A stretch of 64,000 nucleotides of DNA. Source: Rickettsiales bacterium (GTDB lineage: Bacteria; Pseudomonadota; Alphaproteobacteria; Rickettsiales; UBA3002). Below are positions 45,469 to 55,256 of this stretch, one piece after another (position 1 is the stretch's first letter; every line of letters starts with the position of its first letter). The notes beneath the pieces were generated by a model. The model saw only the letters and a list, made by a program, of their open reading frames with translations, did not search any database and was not told where the DNA came from. The stretch is taken from assembly GCA_028281385.1 (NCBI GenBank), contig JANQJY010000049.1, forward strand, positions 1 to 64,000. Direction: 5' to 3'. The position numbers were made by a program, and so were the translations under genes.

Positions 45469-45514
45469 TGGCGTCCCCGAGAGGATTCGAACCTCCGACC
45501 CTCAGATTAGGAAT
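45469..45514 (-). pseudogene. 3' half of split tRNA-Arg(CCU) gene (attL side)
   Basis: Minus strand ATTCCTAATCTGAGGGTCGGAGGTTCGAATCCTCTCGGGGACGCCA: T-arm, acceptor 3' strand and CCA. Confidence 0.85.
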
Positions 45515-45537
45515 GGCCAGCCGGTAGCTATACACGC

Positions 45538-45553
45538 TTATAGCGTCTTTTTA
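45538..45553 (-). repeat. 16-bp inverted repeat copy 1 (TAAAAAGACGCTATAA on minus strand)
   Basis: Exact inverted match to 48834-48849. Confidence 0.8.
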
Positions 45554-45633
45554 AATCCCTCGCAATACCAGGCGGTTTAAAAGATAAGGTTGGCTGCGGG
45601 TTTTACCCGATTATAGGGCCTTTTTAACTCTCG

Positions 45634-45653
45634 ACCTTGCTATCGCCTTGCTA
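45634..45653 (+). repeat. 20-bp direct repeat copy 1, candidate integrase arm site
   Basis: ACCTTGCTATCGCCTTGCTA, exact match to 55125-55144; itself CTTGCTA-TCGC-CTTGCTA. Confidence 0.85.
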
Positions 45654-45714
45654 CCGAGGTTGTTGAAGAAATAGCAGGTGGTAAGATTCCACCCACTACT
45701 CTTTCTGTGCAGGC

Positions 45715-45858
45715 TTATTTCTTTTTGTTTGGCCGCTGCGTTAATGCCGAGGCTGCAGCTGTTTTTGCTGCCTTACTGCTCTTAGGGTTACGCAACACCT
45801 TTGATGCTGCTGTACCAGCTTTCTTGCCTGTTTTTTCGCAACTACGTTTTTTAGTCAT
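45715..45858 (-). CDS. Small basic protein (47 aa)
   Basis: MTKKRSCEKTGKKAGTAASKVLRNPKSSKAAKTAAASALTQRPNKKK*. Confidence 0.6.
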   Translation of the reverse strand: MTKKRSCEKTGKKAGTAASKVLRNPKSSKAAKTAAASALTQRPNKKK

Positions 45859-46127
45859 GATAGTGCTCCTTCCTTAATGATATATTCTTGCCACGGAATT
45901 GCGGCAGGATGAATGTGTGACAGGAATTGGACTATATCCTTCCTGCCATAATATCTGGGACGCCCGCAGCTTTCTGCCATTAGAATGATGGGCATGTACC
46001 CAAATACAGCTTGCAGTGATAAGATCATATCTTCTGCCTGGCGGTTATTATTAAGGATATGCGGTTTAACCACTGCAATGGCAAACGTCACTCCTTGTTC
46101 ACGTATAACGGCACCTTGTATTCTCAT
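45855..46127 (-). CDS. Hypothetical protein
   Basis: MRIQGAVIREQGVTFAIAVVKPHIL...GRKDIVQFLSHIHPAAIPWQEY; overlaps the 47-aa gene start. Confidence 0.6.
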   Translation of the reverse strand: MRIQGAVIREQGVTFAIAVVKPHILNNNRQAEDMILSLQAVFGYMPIILMAESCGRPRYYGRKDIVQFLSHIHPAAIPWQEYIIKEGALS

Positions 46128-46138
46128 GCTATCCTCCT

Positions 46139-46534
46139 CTATCTCGAGCCACATGGCGGGTTAAACTGAGTACGTAAATGTTGTTCAATTCGTAGCCGGT
46201 CTTGCTGGTTCGGAACGTAGATCACGGCAACACCGAGCTGCTTATAGCCCTGTGCCTTCCATTGCGACTTTCTATCGTGATTTTCTACCCTTGACCGAAC
46301 GGCTTGAGATTCACCAACATCAAGAACAATCTCCCAATTCGACGAATTTCGCCCTAAAATGACATACACACCGCTTTGATCGCGGAGGTGTCCAGTGGAT
46401 AAGTATGGTCCCTCACATTTTATGCCAGCAAGGGTAATGGCATCTGACAATATCGTATTCACTACGCTATCCTTTTCTGAAATTAACAGAGGCAAAATTA
46501 ACTTTACCTTCAGACAAGGATTGCTAGAATACAC
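46139..46534 (-). CDS. GIY-YIG-like nuclease domain protein
   Basis: SGVYVILGRNSSNWEIVLDVGESQAVRSRVENHDRKSQW. Confidence 0.6.
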   Translation of the reverse strand: MYSSNPCLKVKLILPLLISEKDSVVNTILSDAITLAGIKCEGPYLSTGHLRDQSGVYVILGRNSSNWEIVLDVGESQAVRSRVENHDRKSQWKAQGYKQLGVAVIYVPNQQDRLRIEQHLRTQFNPPCGSR

Positions 46535-46602
46535 GTGCTAAGGTGAGCGTTCCTTGCGAAGGCTTACAATGGGGAATGTGGCCTCGTCCCATTCCCCATA
46601 AT

Positions 46603-47139
46603 CTAAATATCGTGTTTGATCATAATTTCCCTCCTAATTTCTGCTGCTTCGTAAGATACACCAAAATCATCGCTGATTTCTTCTATGTCATGATACTCTC
46701 GCACCAATTTTGTTGGCATAAGTAGAAAGCTCGCGAACGTGTTTGCCTGCCATTCAGGATCTTTATATGCAGGCACTCGATCTGTTGTTGCCCTGTTTAA
46801 TGCTAGCCGTTCATCTGAATGAAGAATTAAGTGACCTATTTCATGCGTTAAAGTGTAACGATCACGGCCATTGCCAGCGCATGCCCCTTCGTACACATCT
46901 TCTCGTAGGCATATAGTGGGTTCTCCTACTATTTTTCTTCCTTCCTCTCCACGCATCTCCCGTTCAGTTAGTATGCGAAGGTGATAGCCTTCTATAACCT
47001 CTGGCAATACAAACTCTGCAATCTCAACAATCGGCAATCGTGGTTTCTCGCCTACAGGAAGCATTGAACGAAATCGCTCAGTGATCCCTGCTATCTTTGC
47101 ACGACTAAGAGGCAGTGCCTCTAGTGCTAATTTACTCAT
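46603..47139 (-). CDS. ImmA/IrrE family metallo-endopeptidase
   Basis: RYTLTHEIGHLILHSDE zinc motif HEXXH. Confidence 0.88.
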   Translation of the reverse strand: MSKLALEALPLSRAKIAGITERFRSMLPVGEKPRLPIVEIAEFVLPEVIEGYHLRILTEREMRGEEGRKIVGEPTICLREDVYEGACAGNGRDRYTLTHEIGHLILHSDERLALNRATTDRVPAYKDPEWQANTFASFLLMPTKLVREYHDIEEISDDFGVSYEAAEIRREIMIKHDI

Positions 47140-47494
47140 TTTCCTTTTCCTCCCCTCCCAGAATCGTCTTTATCGCATCAAGCTGTTCTGCATTTAATTT
47201 ATCAAACCCACGCGCGAGGGCTGCTATGCACTCTCCATCGTCAAGAGGATTGTGTTTAAGCATCGCCTCGTTTTTCGACATTAAGGCCTTATCTTCGAGT
47301 TTTACTTGCTGATCTTTTGATAATTTATAATGTTTCGTTATTTTCTTTATCAAGTCATCTGGGATGTCGCGCTTACCTGTTTCAATTGCGGATAGGTAAG
47401 ATGATGAAATGTTTGCTGCCTCAGCCATATCCTTTAGAAGAATACCCTCTTCTAATCGCAACCTTCGCAGCTCTTTTCCAAATTCAGTTAACAT
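47132..47494 (-). CDS. XRE family transcriptional regulator
   Basis: MLTEFGKELRRLRLEEGILLKDMAEAANISSSYLSAIETGKRDIP; overlaps the ImmA-like gene. Confidence 0.88.
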   Translation of the reverse strand: MLTEFGKELRRLRLEEGILLKDMAEAANISSSYLSAIETGKRDIPDDLIKKITKHYKLSKDQQVKLEDKALMSKNEAMLKHNPLDDGECIAALARGFDKLNAEQLDAIKTILGGEEKENE

Positions 47495-47654
47495 GGCAGT
47501 ACCTCCCTGATTTTGGATTACAGTAACACAAGCGCCACGGAAGATCAACAAAGATTGAAAAGAAATCAACAAATTTGTGGATCGCAAATTGTTTTCCTTG
47601 CTTTCTCAGAGAGATACGCAATAATTCTTCTTAGAAACAGAAGATTAGAACCCG

Positions 47655-48836
47655 ATGCCGACCATTAAAATTACCAAGCGTGAAGTAGATGCGATACCGT
47701 ATGCCGAATACGACAAGCAGCAATTCTATTGGGATACCGAGCTAAAGGGCTTTGGCCTGCGTGTCGGGCATAAATCCAAAACCTTTATCGTCCAGCGCGA
47801 CATAAATGGCAAAACCAAACGCACCACCATTGGTCGCTTTGACCCATGGACCGTCGAACAAGCGCGCACCGAAGCGCGGGAAATATTAATACAGATGGGC
47901 AAGGGCATCGATATTGCCGCAGAAAAGCGCAAAGCTGCCGCCCAGTCGATCACGCTGACAGAAGCATGGGCGTTGCATAAAGAAGCGATGAAACGGAAAA
48001 ATGCGTCGCCCAACACCATTGCCGATTATGACCGCGCAGTGAACACCCATCTGGCTAAATGGAAGAACCGCAACCTTGTCGATATTACGCGTGCAGAGGT
48101 AAAAGAAATGCACAGCACCATTGGCAAAACAGGTGGCTACGGCGCAAACGGTATTATGCGTTGCTTCCGTGCCATCTATAACACCGCGATGAAGGACAAT
48201 GAGTTTTTGCCACCCAACCCCTGCATCGCCATCCAGTGGTTTAAGGAATATCGCCGGCAGGAACCTATCTCTGATAATAAACTGAAAGATTGGTACAAGC
48301 TGGTGCAAACCATCCCTAACACTGCACGGCGTGACTACCACCTGTTTGTAATTTTTACTGGACTACGCCGTACCGATGCCTGCACCATCAAATGGGCAGA
48401 CATTGATATGAAGGCCGGAACATTGCATCGGCCTAATCCGAAGGGCGGTAAGGAACGTGCCTTTACCATTCCACTACCCGATGTGTGTTTAGAGATATTG
48501 GAGCGGAGAAAGGAAGAAAACGCCATTCTCTACGGTAAGCGCTGTCCGTGGGTATTCGCTACCACAAATCGCAATGGTGAAGTGATTGCCATGCGTGATC
48601 CCAAAGAAACCAAGCGTGGTCTGCCATCGTCACACCGATTGCGCGATACCTATACCACAGCCTGCAACAGCGCTGGCTTGTCGGCTTATGATATTGAGGT
48701 CCTGACCAACCATCGTCCCGCCAACAACAGTGTAACGGCTGGCTATATCAGCCAAAGCATTGACCATTTGCGAAAACAGCAGCAGAAAGTAGCCGATTAT
48801 TTGAAGGGGAAAATGGGCTGGAATAAAACGGTATAA
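47655..48836 (+). CDS. Tyrosine-type site-specific integrase
   Basis: DUF4102-like N-terminus (YYWDTELKGFGLRVGHKSKTFIVQ-like), LFVIFTGLRRTDACTIKWADID, SSHRLRDTYTTAC, GYIS Tyr region. Confidence 0.93.
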   Translation: MPTIKITKREVDAIPYAEYDKQQFYWDTELKGFGLRVGHKSKTFIVQRDINGKTKRTTIGRFDPWTVEQARTEAREILIQMGKGIDIAAEKRKAAAQSITLTEAWALHKEAMKRKNASPNTIADYDRAVNTHLAKWKNRNLVDITRAEVKEMHSTIGKTGGYGANGIMRCFRAIYNTAMKDNEFLPPNPCIAIQWFKEYRRQEPISDNKLKDWYKLVQTIPNTARRDYHLFVIFTGLRRTDACTIKWADIDMKAGTLHRPNPKGGKERAFTIPLPDVCLEILERRKEENAILYGKRCPWVFATTNRNGEVIAMRDPKETKRGLPSSHRLRDTYTTACNSAGLSAYDIEVLTNHRPANNSVTAGYISQSIDHLRKQQQKVADYLKGKMGWNKTV

Positions 48837-48849
48837 AAAGACGCTATAA
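48834..48849 (+). repeat. 16-bp inverted repeat copy 2 overlapping the integrase stop
   Basis: TAAAAAGACGCTATAA, inverted match to 45538-45553. Confidence 0.8.
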
Positions 48850-48897
48850 CAGTTTAGTAACATGCTGTAATATTGAAATTATTATGCTCTATTGCGC

Positions 48898-48926
48898 TTG
48901 ACTTCTCTTGAGTTTATTGGCATATA
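48898..48926 (+). promoter_or_regulatory. Predicted sigma70-like promoter (TTGACT-N17-CATATA)
   Basis: -35 48898-48903, -10 48921-48926, upstream of structured leader. Confidence 0.5.
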
Positions 48927-48932
48927 GATAGG

Positions 48933-49115
48933 GTTGGTAGAGCGATCCACCATTAGGTGTGAGGTGACCATTTGCCCGGTGCAGTCCGGGGGCCAACCGG
49001 TGGGGATTGAAGAGCGTGGGAAATCCCCTTAAAGCAAACGGCACGTGCCATTCTTAGTGATGGTCAGACCCGCCGCCGACACAGTTTTGTTTTATTAAAC
49101 AATGCTAGTGTCGGT
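48933..49115 (+). ncRNA. Structured leader/regulatory RNA candidate upstream of alpA-primase
   Basis: TGACCAT(48965)/ATGGTCA(49060) long-range stem enclosing CCCGG/CCGGG and GGGGATT/AATCCCC hairpins; CCGACAC(49076)/GTGTCGG(49108) hairpin. Confidence 0.5.
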
Positions 49116-49179
49116 GCTTCTCTCAATTAATATGTCTGAATGAACTCCTGATGCTAGCTCTAACTATAAGGAGTTAGTA

Positions 49180-49467
49180 ATGTCTAAGATTAATGACAAC
49201 ATGGCTCATGTCATCGAGCAGTGTATAGATAATGCACTTAAAAAACTTTTCTCTCATGATTTTGCATACCCGGAATACTTTGACACTAAACGGGCTGCTG
49301 CCTACCTCGGCTTGAGCAAGCAACGGTTGGAAATATGGCGAGTTTCTGGAGATGGCCCCCCATACACTAAACTAGCCCAAGCCGTTCGCTACAAACGTAG
49401 CGACCTCGATGTGTTTATGGCCAAGCACCTCCGTAACAACACAACTGAGGGAGGGGCCAATGTCTAG
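49180..49467 (+). CDS. AlpA/excisionase-like helix-turn-helix protein
   Basis: DTKRAAAYLGLSKQRLEIWRVSGDGPPYTKLAQAVRYKRSDLDVFM. Confidence 0.85.
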   Translation: MSKINDNMAHVIEQCIDNALKKLFSHDFAYPEYFDTKRAAAYLGLSKQRLEIWRVSGDGPPYTKLAQAVRYKRSDLDVFMAKHLRNNTTEGGANV

Positions 49468-51676
49468 AGATATTATTGCCGATGCAAAAGCATACACCGA
49501 AGCCGGACTCTCTGTTTTTCCTCTACGAGAACGCAGTAAAGAACCGTTTGGCAAATGGAAAGAGTATGATGCTAAGGCCGATGATTACGGGAGCTTTAAT
49601 AGCGCTAGTAACATCGGCGTTAAATTAGGTGAGCCAAGTGGCGGCTTAATTGATATCGATTGTGACTGGGAGACTTTTAGTCTGCTGGCAAGTAAGTTTT
49701 TAGCACATTTGCCCAGTTTTGGTCGTGCATCCTCTCGCCACAGCCATCGTGTGTTTTTTGCCAATGAATCGGATAATTTTAAAACGGTGCAGTTAAAGCT
49801 CCCGTCTGTATGTAAAGATGACCCGCGGTTGCCTACCGAACACACTCTATGTGTGGCAGAATTTCGGGGGACAGGCGCTTACACCATGTTTCCGCGCTCG
49901 GTGCATCCTAACGGGGAAGAGCTAGCGTGGGAAACACCAGATGGTGCAATGCCGGAAATCCCCACTTTTGCATATGACGCTATTTTAAAGCATGTTCGTG
50001 TCTTGGCGTTTTTATCGGTTATACTGCAATGCTATCCGGGAAAAGGATCGCGTGATGAAATGCACTTTAAATTGGCTGGTGTTTTAGCGCGCGCAGGTGC
50101 CCCTTCCGATGAGATTGATCGCATTAACCTGACATTGGCTAAATTAGCGAAAGACGACGAAGCAGAAATGCGCGCTAAGGGACAAGATGCCGTTGCTCGC
50201 GTAAATGCGGGTGAGCCTGTGGCAAGTATGGCCTCGCTAATTGAAACGTTAGGCCTGCCTGATGCCTGCATCGCCTGCTTTAATGGCTGGCTTGGTATTT
50301 CGGGATCACATGACGATAAGGTGCGTGCACACCCCTCTATGCCATATCCTACTGCCGAACAATTTCGCCAAAGCAAATATCCCGATGCCATGCACCATAA
50401 CGGCAGTTATCTGGTCTATGATGGCGCAAGTTATCGGGAGTATGAGGATGATACCGTTAGGTCGACCCTGTATAAATATCTTGCGAAGGCCGTCTATGAG
50501 CATGACGGGGTCCTTGTACCGTACAATCCGAATGCAGCAAGGGTGAGTAATGTGATTGATTCGTTTAAAGGCATTATGCATCGCTCGACCGGATTATACC
50601 AGCCGCCATGCTGGCTCAAGAGCATGGAAGGTCTACCGCCTGCAAATGAGATCGTCGCCTGCCAGAATGGCTTGCTACATTTGCCTACAGGTGAATTGTT
50701 ACCGCCAACACCTAACTTTTTTACACGTAATGCGCTGGGATTTGATTATGACCCTGGTGCACCGCTACCAAAAAAGTTTAGAGCGTTTCTTGATGACATA
50801 TGGCCTAACGACAGCGATTCGATAGGCGTCTTGCAGGAAATGTTTGGTTATCTGCTGGTAGCAGATACATCGCAGCAGAAGATTTTTCTGATCGTTGGCC
50901 CCCCTAGATCGGGCAAAGGCACGTTAATTCGTGTTCTGACGAAACTTGTGGGCGAGCATAACACCGTGGCACCCAGTCTAAACTCGCTAAGTAGCGATTT
51001 TGGGATGCAAGGGCTGATCGGTAAGCTGATGGCAACGGTGAGCGATGTTCGCATTAGCAACAAAGCAAATGCCACAGCTATATCGGAAAATCTACTGCGC
51101 ATCTCCGGCGAAGATAAGGTCGAGGTAAATCGCAAATATAAGAACGCATGGGAGGGGTATCTGAAAGTGCGTTTTGTGATTATGACCAACGAAGTCCCAC
51201 AATTCGCCGATAACAGTGGTGCATTAGCCAAGCGGTTTGTACCGTTAGTGATGCGCCATAGCTTTTTCGGTAAAGAAAACCCAAACCTGACCAATGAGCT
51301 GCTTGAAGAATTGCCTGGAATCCTGAACTGGGCAATCGAGGGGTGGCGGCGATTAAATGAGCGTGGGCATTTTGTGGTGCCTGAGTCTGCCACTGAATTA
51401 GTCGATAGTTTGACGACACTGGCCTCGCCTATATCGGCATTTGTGGCTGAATGCTGCGAACAGGGAAGCGGCTATACTGTCCGAAAAGAGGCTTTATATG
51501 AGATTTGGTGTAAATGGTGTATAACAGAAGGCGATATGCGTCCCGGCACATCAGCCACCTTCGGTCGCAATTTGATGTCGCTGGGCGGTATCGACACCGA
51601 CCGCGAAACGGGTGGGGAAAGAAAGAACCTCTACACCGGCATTAAACTGAAGGATAATCCTTACGATGCGTCTTAA
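49460..51676 (+). CDS. Phage/plasmid primase-helicase, P4 alpha/bifunctional primase-polymerase type
   Basis: Prim-Pol GLSVFPLRERSKEPFGKWKEYD, GGLIDIDCDW; helicase FLIVGPPRSGKGTLIRVLTKL, RFVIMTNEVPQFADNSGALAKRFVPL. Confidence 0.92.
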   Translation: MSRDIIADAKAYTEAGLSVFPLRERSKEPFGKWKEYDAKADDYGSFNSASNIGVKLGEPSGGLIDIDCDWETFSLLASKFLAHLPSFGRASSRHSHRVFFANESDNFKTVQLKLPSVCKDDPRLPTEHTLCVAEFRGTGAYTMFPRSVHPNGEELAWETPDGAMPEIPTFAYDAILKHVRVLAFLSVILQCYPGKGSRDEMHFKLAGVLARAGAPSDEIDRINLTLAKLAKDDEAEMRAKGQDAVARVNAGEPVASMASLIETLGLPDACIACFNGWLGISGSHDDKVRAHPSMPYPTAEQFRQSKYPDAMHHNGSYLVYDGASYREYEDDTVRSTLYKYLAKAVYEHDGVLVPYNPNAARVSNVIDSFKGIMHRSTGLYQPPCWLKSMEGLPPANEIVACQNGLLHLPTGELLPPTPNFFTRNALGFDYDPGAPLPKKFRAFLDDIWPNDSDSIGVLQEMFGYLLVADTSQQKIFLIVGPPRSGKGTLIRVLTKLVGEHNTVAPSLNSLSSDFGMQGLIGKLMATVSDVRISNKANATAISENLLRISGEDKVEVNRKYKNAWEGYLKVRFVIMTNEVPQFADNSGALAKRFVPLVMRHSFFGKENPNLTNELLEELPGILNWAIEGWRRLNERGHFVVPESATELVDSLTTLASPISAFVAECCEQGSGYTVRKEALYEIWCKWCITEGDMRPGTSATFGRNLMSLGGIDTDRETGGERKNLYTGIKLKDNPYDAS

Positions 51677-52009
51677 TTACCCGTCCTAGTTGTCTTGGTA
51701 AAATGCTTATTGTTTCGATTGCCAATTATGAATGTAATATTCGGTAAAAAGCGAGAGTAGAATAAGAAATTACCGGGACAACTAGGACCCCTCCTTCTTG
51801 CAATTCCAAAGAATGTGATGAATGTGATAATTTTCTTATCGCGCACGGGCGCGATGAGGCGATTTAGAATTGAAACGATTGAAATTTTTATCCTTATGCA
51901 TACGCGCATGTGAAGAACATGAAGATTTCTTCATCACGCGCGGGATGCACGTCTTGTTTTTTTCTACCATCCTGCCCACCCCCGCATCTTCGCGTTGACA
52001 CTCTCCGAT

Positions 52010-52242
52010 ATGAGCGTATCTTTCTAGCTAGAGCTATCGAAGGTAGCTTTGGGGCTTCAAACCTCATCTGGGCGGCTGACATCAGCCGTAATGATGTCGC
52101 CTTTTCGACCTTATGGCCGGGAGGCGACAATGTATGTCCAATGCCTCGCGGCTAAAGATTGTCGCGATCATCCCAGATGATTTTGAACTCCCGGCTACCA
52201 GTCTTAGGGCTGGTGGTCGCTTGTTTAGATACGGAGAAAAGA
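52010..52242 (+). ncRNA. Structured leader candidate upstream of GIY-YIG gene
   Basis: GACATCA/TGATGTC (52078-52098), GTCGCC/GGCGAC (52096-52128), ACCAG/CTGGT (52197-52214). Confidence 0.35.
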
Positions 52243-53049
52243 ATGATCACGCTACAGGAAATACTGAATCTAAAAACTGACCGATTTCACAACGCTAAAG
52301 TAAAGCTAGTGCGACACAAAGACAGTCGCGCCGAATACCGCGATCTGATACGCAACAGGTCGGGACTCCTGGAATATCAACGAGAACAGGCCAAGGCGGT
52401 TTTTAAGGGGTGTAGCTACATTATCGCCTTTGTTGGGCTTGAGAGACGCCGCTCTGTCCTTTTCGGCGTGTTTTCTGTCGATGGCGTGACCCAACGCGAC
52501 GGTATGTATTATTATGACCTGACCCATCTGCCTGAATGCGCTGACCTTGAGAACCGCATCATAATTGATTGGGGTGGTAGTGCACAGGCATGGCACCAAT
52601 GGTATGATGCGCAATCGAAAGAGGTGGTTGAGATATTACCAGCGGGCTACCTCGGCAACTTTCCTGGGCTGCTGGATTTTGTGCTGGATTACGATGAATT
52701 GAAGCGGCTGATCGACAATCCCGAAGCGAACCATGATTGGAAGCATCACCTCTCTGCTGTTAACGGTATCTACCTGATCCTCGATACCCAAACCGGCATG
52801 CAGTATATCGGTTCTGCCAACGGTAAAGAAGGCATCTGGCAGCGCTGGGGCGAGTATGCAGCCAGCAAACATGGTGGCAATAAAGAGTTAATAGCATCGC
52901 TGGAGACTGACCCAAACTATCAGCGACACTTCCGCTATTCGATCCTGCAAACACTTCCCAGTAACATTACAAAAACCGAAATTGATAAGATCGAAAGCCT
53001 TTATAAAAAGAAATTTGGTTCCAAGGCACACGGGCTGAATAGGAATTAA
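52243..53049 (+). CDS. GIY-YIG nuclease family protein
   Basis: NGIYLILDTQTGMQYIGSANGKEGIWQRWGEYAASKHGGNKEL; ATG at 52243 after GGAGAAAAG. Confidence 0.88.
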   Translation: MITLQEILNLKTDRFHNAKVKLVRHKDSRAEYRDLIRNRSGLLEYQREQAKAVFKGCSYIIAFVGLERRRSVLFGVFSVDGVTQRDGMYYYDLTHLPECADLENRIIIDWGGSAQAWHQWYDAQSKEVVEILPAGYLGNFPGLLDFVLDYDELKRLIDNPEANHDWKHHLSAVNGIYLILDTQTGMQYIGSANGKEGIWQRWGEYAASKHGGNKELIASLETDPNYQRHFRYSILQTLPSNITKTEIDKIESLYKKKFGSKAHGLNRN

Positions 53050-53069
53050 TAAGCTCTGGTAGAACTTAT

Positions 53070-53390
53070 TTAATAAGTGCCTGTAGCTTTGCGCGTATCT
53101 ATCTCTTCTGCAGCTATTTTAATTGCCTCATCAAAAACACTGTCTTCAATTGTATCGCCATCAAGTAGTGCATCAACAATTAAGCTCGCAAGTGATTCGC
53201 TTGTGATGGCTCGGTCATGGTCTAAAAAATAATCACCCGCAGCTTTACGCGCATTTATCTCTTCTGCAGCTATCTCAATAGCAAAACTAGCATCTTTGTT
53301 TTTCATCATATCAGCTTCTATAATTCTTTTAATTATCAAACTGGCCAGATTTTCGCTAGAAAGAGGCTTATTTTCTTGATCTTTACTCAT
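53070..53390 (-). CDS. Tandem-repeat small protein, putative immunity protein
   Basis: Two related ~43-aa units: SENLASLIIKRIIEADMMKNKDASFAIEIAAEEINARKAAGDY and SESLASLIVDALLDGDTIEDSVFDEAIKIAAEEIDTRKATGTY; overlaps toxin gene end by 8 nt. Confidence 0.6.
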   Translation of the reverse strand: MSKDQENKPLSSENLASLIIKRIIEADMMKNKDASFAIEIAAEEINARKAAGDYFLDHDRAITSESLASLIVDALLDGDTIEDSVFDEAIKIAAEEIDTRKATGTY

Positions 53391-54972
53391 AGTTCTTTCT
53401 CTGTTTTGGAAATTTTATTTTTCTATACGGCACGCCCTTAACATCTAGATCCACTGCGGGTTCTCCACTTTTTGATTTGGGGCGTTTGCCTACCCAATCA
53501 CCATTTGGCAAACGTTTTCCTTCACCTGGATAATTTTTAGGGGTATCTGGTTTGCCTCTTCCGAACTTGTCATATAGTTCGTCTGCTGCTTTCTGGCCAC
53601 CTTTTTCCTCTCGATATTCAGGACGCCTTCCCGGTCTTCCAATTGGTTTTCCACCCGGAATTATAACATCTTTTGGGTTTGGTGGTTTTCGGAAAATACT
53701 CCCCACTGCAACACCAATCCGCGCGATGCCTCCGACAACGATTCGTCCTAAGGCAGCGACACCGCCGATCAGTGCTTCCGGATAAACCGGTTCAGCGCGG
53801 CCAGATGGGTCGACCTCGCTCGGCAGGCGCGGTAGCTCTGTCAGTGGTTCAGCGTAACAGCGACAATTGAATTCTTCGCCCGGATGGCCGGTGGACGGCG
53901 GCTCATCCCACGCAAAAATTCTATCGTCATTCTCAGCATGACTGCCGCGGACTTTTTCATCATCCATCGACCGCCAGACATAATGCGTCACATCTGCTTC
54001 TCTTTGACGTATCTCACTCAGCTTACCGTTAAAGTGCAGCGCCAGCATTTCAACACGGTCGGGAATGGTCACATCCTGCCAAGTCTGTAACGCATCTTGC
54101 ATATGGTCCACTATTTGCTCACTGTTCCTACCTTGCCTGACGAGTTTATTTAGCTCTTTGTCGATAAATCTCCTTGTGCCGTTCTCGATGATATCAACCG
54201 CCAGATCGGTAAATGCATCGCTAGCTTCCGGCATGACTTCCGATTCGGAGACAATCGATTTATTCCCTAGTAACTGCCCTTGTATTTCGGCATTGATTTG
54301 CTGAATTTCCTCGGCGATGCGTCTGGCATTTTCTTTCAGAGGAAAGGCGATCTCGGGCAGCAGTTCTTCCGTCGTCATCTGGTCAAAACGCTGACGGATC
54401 GGTTGGACAATATAATCGGGCGTGTGAATGTCTGCTGTAGAGATGTTCAGGCTATTTAAAAGAGTTGCCTGCGCTTTTCGTCTGCGTTTGGCTTTATCGC
54501 GCAGCAATTCGTTATCCGTATCGGGAAGCGAGTTATGGAGAATTTCCCACAGCGCATCTTTCAGTTGCTGCTTTGCCAGTACGGTATCACCCTGGCGTTT
54601 TGCCTCAACATACGCATGTATATTGGCATAAAAATCGGTTGTTTCATCGACCAGCGCAGAATCTTCGTAATATAAAAACGCAATCGCCAATCGTTCATTG
54701 AGCAACAAATCATCCCAGATCGCGCCATACAACACCGTTTCTAGTTGGCCGTCATCGCTATCCAGTTCCTGTTTATACTGCTGCTTCTCAGTCGTTTTAG
54801 ACAAGTGCGTGCTGTGCGGCAGAAAACTGATGATTAGTTCATCACGCATCCGGTGGTAGGTTTGTATATCGTGTAATGATGTGCTGGGCTTAAGCTTGCG
54901 GGCCTCTGTCCGTAATTCCCGTATTTGTGTAACGTCATATCTCATGAACGAGAGGATACATTGGAGTTGCAA
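53383..54972 (-). CDS. MuF/SPP1 gp7-type phage head protein fused to polymorphic-toxin-like C-terminal domain
   Basis: MuF signature HYVWRSMDDEKVRGSHAENDDRIFAWDEPPSTGHPGEEFNCRCYAEP; C-terminus RLPNGDWVGKRPKSKSGEPAVDLDVKGVPYRKIKF after a Gly/Pro-rich linker. Confidence 0.75.
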   Translation of the reverse strand: MQLQCILSFMRYDVTQIRELRTEARKLKPSTSLHDIQTYHRMRDELIISFLPHSTHLSKTTEKQQYKQELDSDDGQLETVLYGAIWDDLLLNERLAIAFLYYEDSALVDETTDFYANIHAYVEAKRQGDTVLAKQQLKDALWEILHNSLPDTDNELLRDKAKRRRKAQATLLNSLNISTADIHTPDYIVQPIRQRFDQMTTEELLPEIAFPLKENARRIAEEIQQINAEIQGQLLGNKSIVSESEVMPEASDAFTDLAVDIIENGTRRFIDKELNKLVRQGRNSEQIVDHMQDALQTWQDVTIPDRVEMLALHFNGKLSEIRQREADVTHYVWRSMDDEKVRGSHAENDDRIFAWDEPPSTGHPGEEFNCRCYAEPLTELPRLPSEVDPSGRAEPVYPEALIGGVAALGRIVVGGIARIGVAVGSIFRKPPNPKDVIIPGGKPIGRPGRRPEYREEKGGQKAADELYDKFGRGKPDTPKNYPGEGKRLPNGDWVGKRPKSKSGEPAVDLDVKGVPYRKIKFPKQRKNYE

Positions 54973-55031
54973 CGCTCGGAAGGGGCGGAATGTGACTTTT
55001 GGGGATTTTTATTAAAAGATACGCGTGAAGC

Positions 55032-55108
55032 TGGTGGTCCCGGCGGGATTCGAACCCACGGCTTCCAGATTAGGAATCTGGCACTCTATCCAGCTGAGTT
55101 ACGGGACC
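55032..55108 (-). tRNA. tRNA-Arg(CCU), intact with encoded CCA
   Basis: GGTCCCGTAACTCAGCTGGATAGAGTGCCAGATTCCTAATCTGGAAGCCGTGGGTTCGAATCCCGCCGGGACCACCA; cloverleaf pairs by eye. Confidence 0.95.
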
Positions 55109-55124
55109 AGTTTGTTGCTTCTCT

Positions 55125-55144
55125 ACCTTGCTATCGCCTTGCTA
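55125..55144 (+). repeat. 20-bp direct repeat copy 2, candidate integrase arm site
   Basis: ACCTTGCTATCGCCTTGCTA, exact match to 45634-45653. Confidence 0.85.
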
Positions 55145-55216
55145 TTCCCATTTTTGCGTTTTTTATACTCTTGATTCCTAACCTACATCAAACAGTTCTG
55201 CGGCCCCAACCCTGGC

Positions 55217-55256
55217 ATTAGGAATCTGATGCTCTATCCTGCTGAGCTACGGGGAC
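55217..55256 (-). pseudogene. 5' half of split tRNA-Arg(CCU) gene (attR side)
   Basis: Minus strand GTCCCCGTAGCTCAGCAGGATAGAGCATCAGATTCCTAAT; acceptor and anticodon stems complement the half at 45469-45514. Confidence 0.88.

Follow-up and report, generated by a model that had tools for sequence, protein, structure and literature searches.

The first 64,000 nucleotides of contig JANQJY010000049.1 from a Rickettsiales bacterium (GenBank assembly GCA_028281385.1; hereafter the window) contain a 9.7-kb integrative element with exact ends at positions 45506-55225, which carries a candidate toxin tagged with a MuF domain. A 9-bp attachment core, ATTAGGAAT on the + strand, is found at 45506-45514 and again at 55217-55225. 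The host gene for tRNA-Arg(CCT) is interrupted in the anticodon loop, and joining the flanks defines its 3' half (45469-45514, - strand) and its 5' half (55217-55256, - strand), each including one copy of the shared core ATTCCTAAT. When the flanks were fused in script at this core, ARAGORN recognised an intact 77-nt tRNA-Arg(CCT). The element brings its own intact tRNA-Arg(CCT) (55032-55108, - strand; ARAGORN), the sequence of which is unlike that of the rejoined host tRNA. In the draft genome, which is 95.7% complete and has 34 tRNA places (30 typed, 4 untyped), it is the only tRNA with a CCT anticodon among the typed ones. A tRNA-Arg(TCT) is also encoded in the host genome and might read AGG via wobble. 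With its short core, the broken host tRNA and the carried tRNA of the same isotype, the locus has the features of tRNA-dependent integration: the element is inserted in the anticodon loop of the host's tRNA-Arg(CCT) gene, breaks this gene and supplies a substitute. A first-pass annotation of the window had already proposed a replacement tRNA. This is confirmed, but the strategy is known in kind from the tRNA-dependent lysogeny of mycobacteriophages, which also carry a replacement tRNA (PMC10865867). Those are complete phages, whereas the element described here is of a satellite type.

All genes named in the first-pass annotation were recovered with Pfam, PHROGs, NCBIfam and PADLOC, against which the proteins of the element were scanned, and with ARAGORN. 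These are a tyrosine integrase (47655-48836, +; PF13356, PF00589; phrog_1 2.7e-46), an AlpA/excisionase-like helix-turn-helix protein (49180-49467, +; HTH_17, PF12728 2.9e-08; phrog_66 3.7e-07), a P4-family primase/helicase (49460-51676, +; TIGR01613 3.7e-51; Prim-Pol PF09250; phrog_6088 1.8e-68), an XRE/ImmA pair, a GIY-YIG protein, the MuF protein and the tRNA. As it had also stated, structural and transfer genes are missing: no portal, capsid, other head, tail, terminase or conjugation gene was detected within 45506-55225 by the Pfam, PHROGs and NCBIfam scans. The element thus shares with P4-like phage satellites the integrase, AlpA, the P4-family primase/helicase, the tRNA site and the lack of a structural module. 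It differs from them in having no recognised capsid-hijacking gene and no identified helper, and in its MuF toxin cargo. No close relatives of its integrase or primase were found among viral contigs, and phage and plasmid primases align to just ~45-67% of the element primase with 23-38% identity. The GIY-YIG gene (52246-53049, +) codes for the UzuA protein of Uzume, an anti-phage system (PADLOC UzuA 1.1e-92; PF01541 5e-05), and the element therefore carries defence too.

The MuF-tagged toxin candidate of 529 aa is encoded at 53383-54972 (- strand), with an alternative ATG start possibly near 54945. Its PF04233 match (7.1e-15) covers residues 270-373 and is near complete (profile positions 3-110 of 112), and the protein has the invariant Y/W/D/R/H..W..P..GP..CRC residues of the free-standing family described below. 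The end of the MuF gene shares 8 bp with the start of a gene for a 106-aa protein (53070-53390, -). This protein matches no family of known function in Pfam, PHROGs, NCBIfam or PADLOC and is an immunity candidate by its position. Such a small downstream open reading frame (ORF) with a putative immunity role is a feature of MuF polymorphic toxins; portal-adjacent location in a prophage, another such feature, is not seen on this element, which has no portal, terminase or capsid. By its sequence, the region is a P4-like integrative element whose cargo comprises UzuA, the MuF-tagged toxin candidate and the overlapping immunity candidate. The placement of such a pair on a P4-like, tRNA-replacing element, as first proposed, is supported; the observation behind that proposal held up, its interpretation only in part. 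The element itself combines known parts in a new way, and the more interesting result is the stand-alone MuF family and its possible carriage by gene transfer agents (GTAs).

Free-standing MuF proteins in Alphaproteobacteria

MuF toxins have been placed exclusively in temperate phages and prophages (Jamet 2017, PMC5576092). The toxins of that set resemble those considered here in their MuF domain, variable C-terminal region and small downstream ORF. They are portal-adjacent and come mostly from Firmicutes, whereas the genes found here are mostly single chromosomal genes of Alphaproteobacteria, plus the one on the P4-like element. The first-pass annotation had expected a stand-alone copy on a tRNA-replacing satellite to be unusual. 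A stand-alone copy is not exceptional, since MuF genes that vary in their C-termini and lie on the chromosome away from prophages are common in the host family and in other Alphaproteobacteria.

MuF matches occur in 10 of the 16 genomes of the host's GTDB family, at 12 places in total. Apart from the window copy, these mostly have ordinary chromosomal neighbours and a small ORF downstream; at one of them (L013) the MuF gene adjoins an integrase within a defence-rich region. All ten scanned proteins of the family matched PF04233, nearly all of them over just its second half. On its own as the query, the window MuF gave no match in a scan of GTDB genomes, and an alignment that included the GTDB-family proteins (A1) yielded 178 loci when used as the query. 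The titles of the best 78 of these 178 loci are alphaproteobacterial or, for a few metagenome-assembled genomes (MAGs), merely Proteobacteria. In many relatives an N-terminal Y..AF..YLR.GTP motif precedes the MuF motif. Methyloceanibacter methanicus has three consecutive genes of this YLR-MuF type (L075, 8815-12648). On the 5.8-kb circular plasmid pTB4 of Roseobacter denitrificans, an unannotated YLR-MuF gene (L025, 5437-5824) reaches the record end and probably continues across the record start.

Phage or GTA structural genes lie near 73 of 77 MuF ORFs in viral contigs, with a portal match at <=1.5 kb for 58. With the same detector, structural genes were found near 4 of 50 genomic loci (those with at least 5 kb on either side), none of them portal-adjacent; as the genomic loci were picked by likeness to stand-alone copies, this count shows that such a branch exists, not that most MuF genes stand alone. 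Among 102 neighbour genes from 26 loci, there was no terminase, portal or capsid in the 25 PHROGs listed of 63. One member matched head-maturation-protease families. In several Rhodobacterales an integrase adjoins the MuF gene.

The 91 C-termini compared form clusters of 59 and 10, plus many small ones. Recognised toxin domains are present in several relatives, and the C-terminal Pfam domains comprise GH108, VgrG3-like C, SLT, WHH/colicin DNase and colicin E5. Modelled inside the full protein, the commonest C-terminus gave a pLDDT of 88, and its five best PDB matches were pectocin M1, pectocin M2 (two chains), syringacin M and colicin M. A colicin-M fold is hence predicted for this commonest domain, not for the C-terminus of the window protein. 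Unlike Colicin M, these proteins have an N-terminal MuF tag instead of translocation and receptor domains, and the likeness seen is one of predicted fold. A membrane-type ORF follows next in 30 of 40 cases with the commonest C-terminus, compared to 66 of 293 control genes and 2 of 12 genes with other C-termini. The MuF part resembles phage minor capsid models in structure comparisons. Overall, the toxin candidate belongs to a polymorphic family, encoded mostly by single genes across Alphaproteobacteria, whose members couple a MuF module to exchangeable C-terminal domains.

Individual loci illustrate this variety. The host has a second MuF gene with a colicin E5 C-terminus beside a tRNA-Lys, with small downstream ORFs (L022, 7866-8912 of G000:C105). 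On plasmid p3 of Pukyongiella litopenaei (L027, 7638-9832), a MuF-HNH/colicin-DNase gene is accompanied by an SMI1/KNR4 immunity-type gene and three recombinases. The MuF motif is combined with lysozyme, GH108, VgrG3-like or peptidoglycan-binding domains in L110, L115, L118 and L143, mostly from MAGs of Alphaproteobacteria, and similar fusions to lytic or peptidoglycan-binding domains were judged by eye in L111, L116, L120, L134 and L137.

Gene transfer agents as a candidate source of heads

The host genome has a single HK97-type capsid gene, which is clustered with portal, protease and adaptor genes of a GTA. GTA_TIM and tail genes are located ~16-22 kb from this cluster on the same contig. 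The portal, protease, capsid, adaptor, tail and GTA_TIM genes of RcGTA-type GTAs are thus present in the host too, but here they are interleaved with unrelated genes, their frames being open. Interleaved GTA genes with open frames were seen at L122, L123, L125 and L272 of the host family. The GTA terminase is missed by phrog_2 and matches phrog_38. Matches to phrog_2 of ~1e-5 in nearly all host-family genomes were discarded as terminases, as they were PhoH in both loci read (host and G002). With phrog_2 and HK97 profiles, no phage terminase or capsid was detected in the host beyond those of the GTA; the search did not extend to other families of capsids or terminases.

GTA_TIM is present in 14 of 16 host-family genomes. 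It was found in 41 of 50 genomes with stand-alone-type MuF loci versus 37 of 395 genomes of a class sample, and within that sample, drawn evenly over families, in 7 of 25 MuF-positive versus 30 of 370 other genomes (Fisher p 0.005), an association that is confounded by phylogeny in both contrasts. Two MuF genes directly adjoin GTA-type genes. At L138 (335-3548), a GTA-type capsid gene (phrog_10 3e-74) is followed after 212 bp by a MuF-toxin gene, with housekeeping genes beyond it. At L146 (13155-16963), a MuF-SLT (lytic transglycosylase) gene and a small ORF stand beside the GTA genes g3.5 to g13, and a radical-SAM gene occupies the place where the portal might be expected. An ORF upstream of MuF in L136 was dropped as a GTA tail gene because it has no family match. 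Given that 14 of 16 family genomes have GTA genes and that GTA-type genes adjoin two MuF genes elsewhere, the host GTA rather than a helper phage is the best candidate for the source of heads.

Short motifs are enriched upstream of MuF genes. CCCTTCC precedes 7 of 12 host-family MuF genes compared to 8 of 322 background regions. In the wider MuF set, GTTAAC was found upstream of 14 of 47 genes versus 16 of 537, mainly in Rhodobacterales; it is a possible CtrA half-site, and putative CtrA half-sites have been reported for late RcGTA genes (PMC9638019). A DnaA-box-like sequence containing TTATCC lies upstream of MuF in L051, L054, L067, L076, L089, L095 and L130, mainly in Hyphomicrobiales.

Competing explanations for the MuF module

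We propose, with a probability of about 0.4, that the P4-like, tRNA-replacing element encodes a MuF toxin that is docked to particles made elsewhere. By its MuF module, the toxin would attach to particles produced elsewhere in the cell, at their portal or head; most likely these would be made by the host's own GTA and otherwise by a prophage. The particle would then bring the toxin into neighbours, and cells holding the element would survive via the immunity protein. Upkeep of the element would be independent of toxin delivery, since the substitute tRNA would bind the host to the element. A wider and more doubtful extension is that alphaproteobacterial GTAs in general double as toxin carriers. 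Dispersed MuF toxins, some of them moved by satellites, would ride in GTA heads and kill non-immune recipients, biasing DNA exchange towards kin. In the open-access PMC literature, we found no paper that connects GTAs or satellites with MuF or polymorphic toxins and none reporting a toxin cargo of GTAs. The existence of a free-standing alphaproteobacterial branch whose toxins are exchangeable implies that heads made elsewhere can be served by the MuF tag. Should the head indeed be that of the GTA, GTAs would have a function in antagonism or kin selection, and their long retention a testable explanation; the satellite illustrates a possible route for such toxins between genomes.

Besides the phylogenetic confounding, several observations weigh against the proposed reading. 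GTA_TIM is missing from 9 of the 50 MuF-locus genomes, including the isolate KLH11, and some copies are located inside or at the edge of prophages (L047, L048, L082, L085, L090, L105, L106); in L047 and L048 the prophage has GTA-like tail genes. The C-terminus of the window MuF protein has no recognised toxin domain or relative in Pfam, NCBIfam, PADLOC, PDB, phages or plasmids, and its AlphaFold model is poor. The colicin-M fold call relies on Foldseek probability, with low TM-scores of ~0.3. In addition, the upstream motifs are mostly absent from the regions before the first GTA genes of the same genomes. A promoter common to MuF genes and the main GTA cluster was thus rejected, and co-regulation is a lead only.

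The helper phage favoured by the first-pass annotation would have the toxin loaded into heads of an infecting phage. This fits the P4-like gene set without structural genes, the role of MuF proteins as phage head components (PMC5576092) and the location of some relatives in or beside prophages, but a helper phage is not the only option, as the sole HK97-type capsid of the host is that of the GTA. Since the host also has no phrog_2 terminase besides, the element has no recognised P4 capsid-hijacking gene and the toxin family is mostly found without any satellite, we consider a helper phage unlikely. Slightly below it we rank a moron-like cargo or addiction module, in which the pair would persist because a cell that loses the immunity gene is harmed, and MuF would serve no particle now. 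The position of the pair at the element edge beside the attachment site, the overlap of toxin and immunity genes and the integrases adjoining relatives L082, L085, L090, L094 and L105-L107 agree with it; however, the MuF motif residues are near-invariant across very diverse carriers, which argues for a retained tag function.

Still less probable is a role of the small MuF motif as a trafficking or processing domain of toxins that leave by another route or by lysis. Short relatives retain just the last part of the MuF domain, and periplasm-acting domains (colicin-M-like, muramidases) are common among relatives. On the other hand, the motif structurally matches phage minor capsid proteins, and no receptor-binding domain was recognised in the 260-320-aa proteins. 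TssB, a marker of the type VI secretion system, is absent from all 16 family genomes (type IV and type I systems were not searched), and delivery by the type VI route was rejected on this ground. A decayed prophage remnant, suggested by MuF being normally a phage head gene (PMC5576092), is very improbable: the boundaries are intact, the integration and replication set is complete, the element holds no further phage gene remnant and the same type of gene stands free in many relatives. Related elements with full structural modules, which the first-pass annotation had named as evidence for such decay, were not found in the comparisons made with the integrase and primase.

Further genes of the element

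The ImmA/IrrE (M78) protein is CapP-like (46603-47139, -; PF06114 2.7e-14; PADLOC capP 8e-20) and the neighbouring XRE regulator is CapH-like (47132-47500, -; PF13560, PF01381; PADLOC HTH_VI 3.5e-12, capH 2.9e-10). The pair (46603-47500) recalls CapP/CapH, regulators linked to the cyclic oligonucleotide-based anti-phage signalling system (CBASS); no CBASS effector genes were seen in the element. A 131-aa protein (46139-46534, -) is GIY-YIG-like by eye only, with no Pfam match and a weak match to PADLOC PDC-S14 (2e-05). Next to it, a 99-aa protein of unassigned function (45855-46154, -) matches phrog_23950 (1.4e-24).

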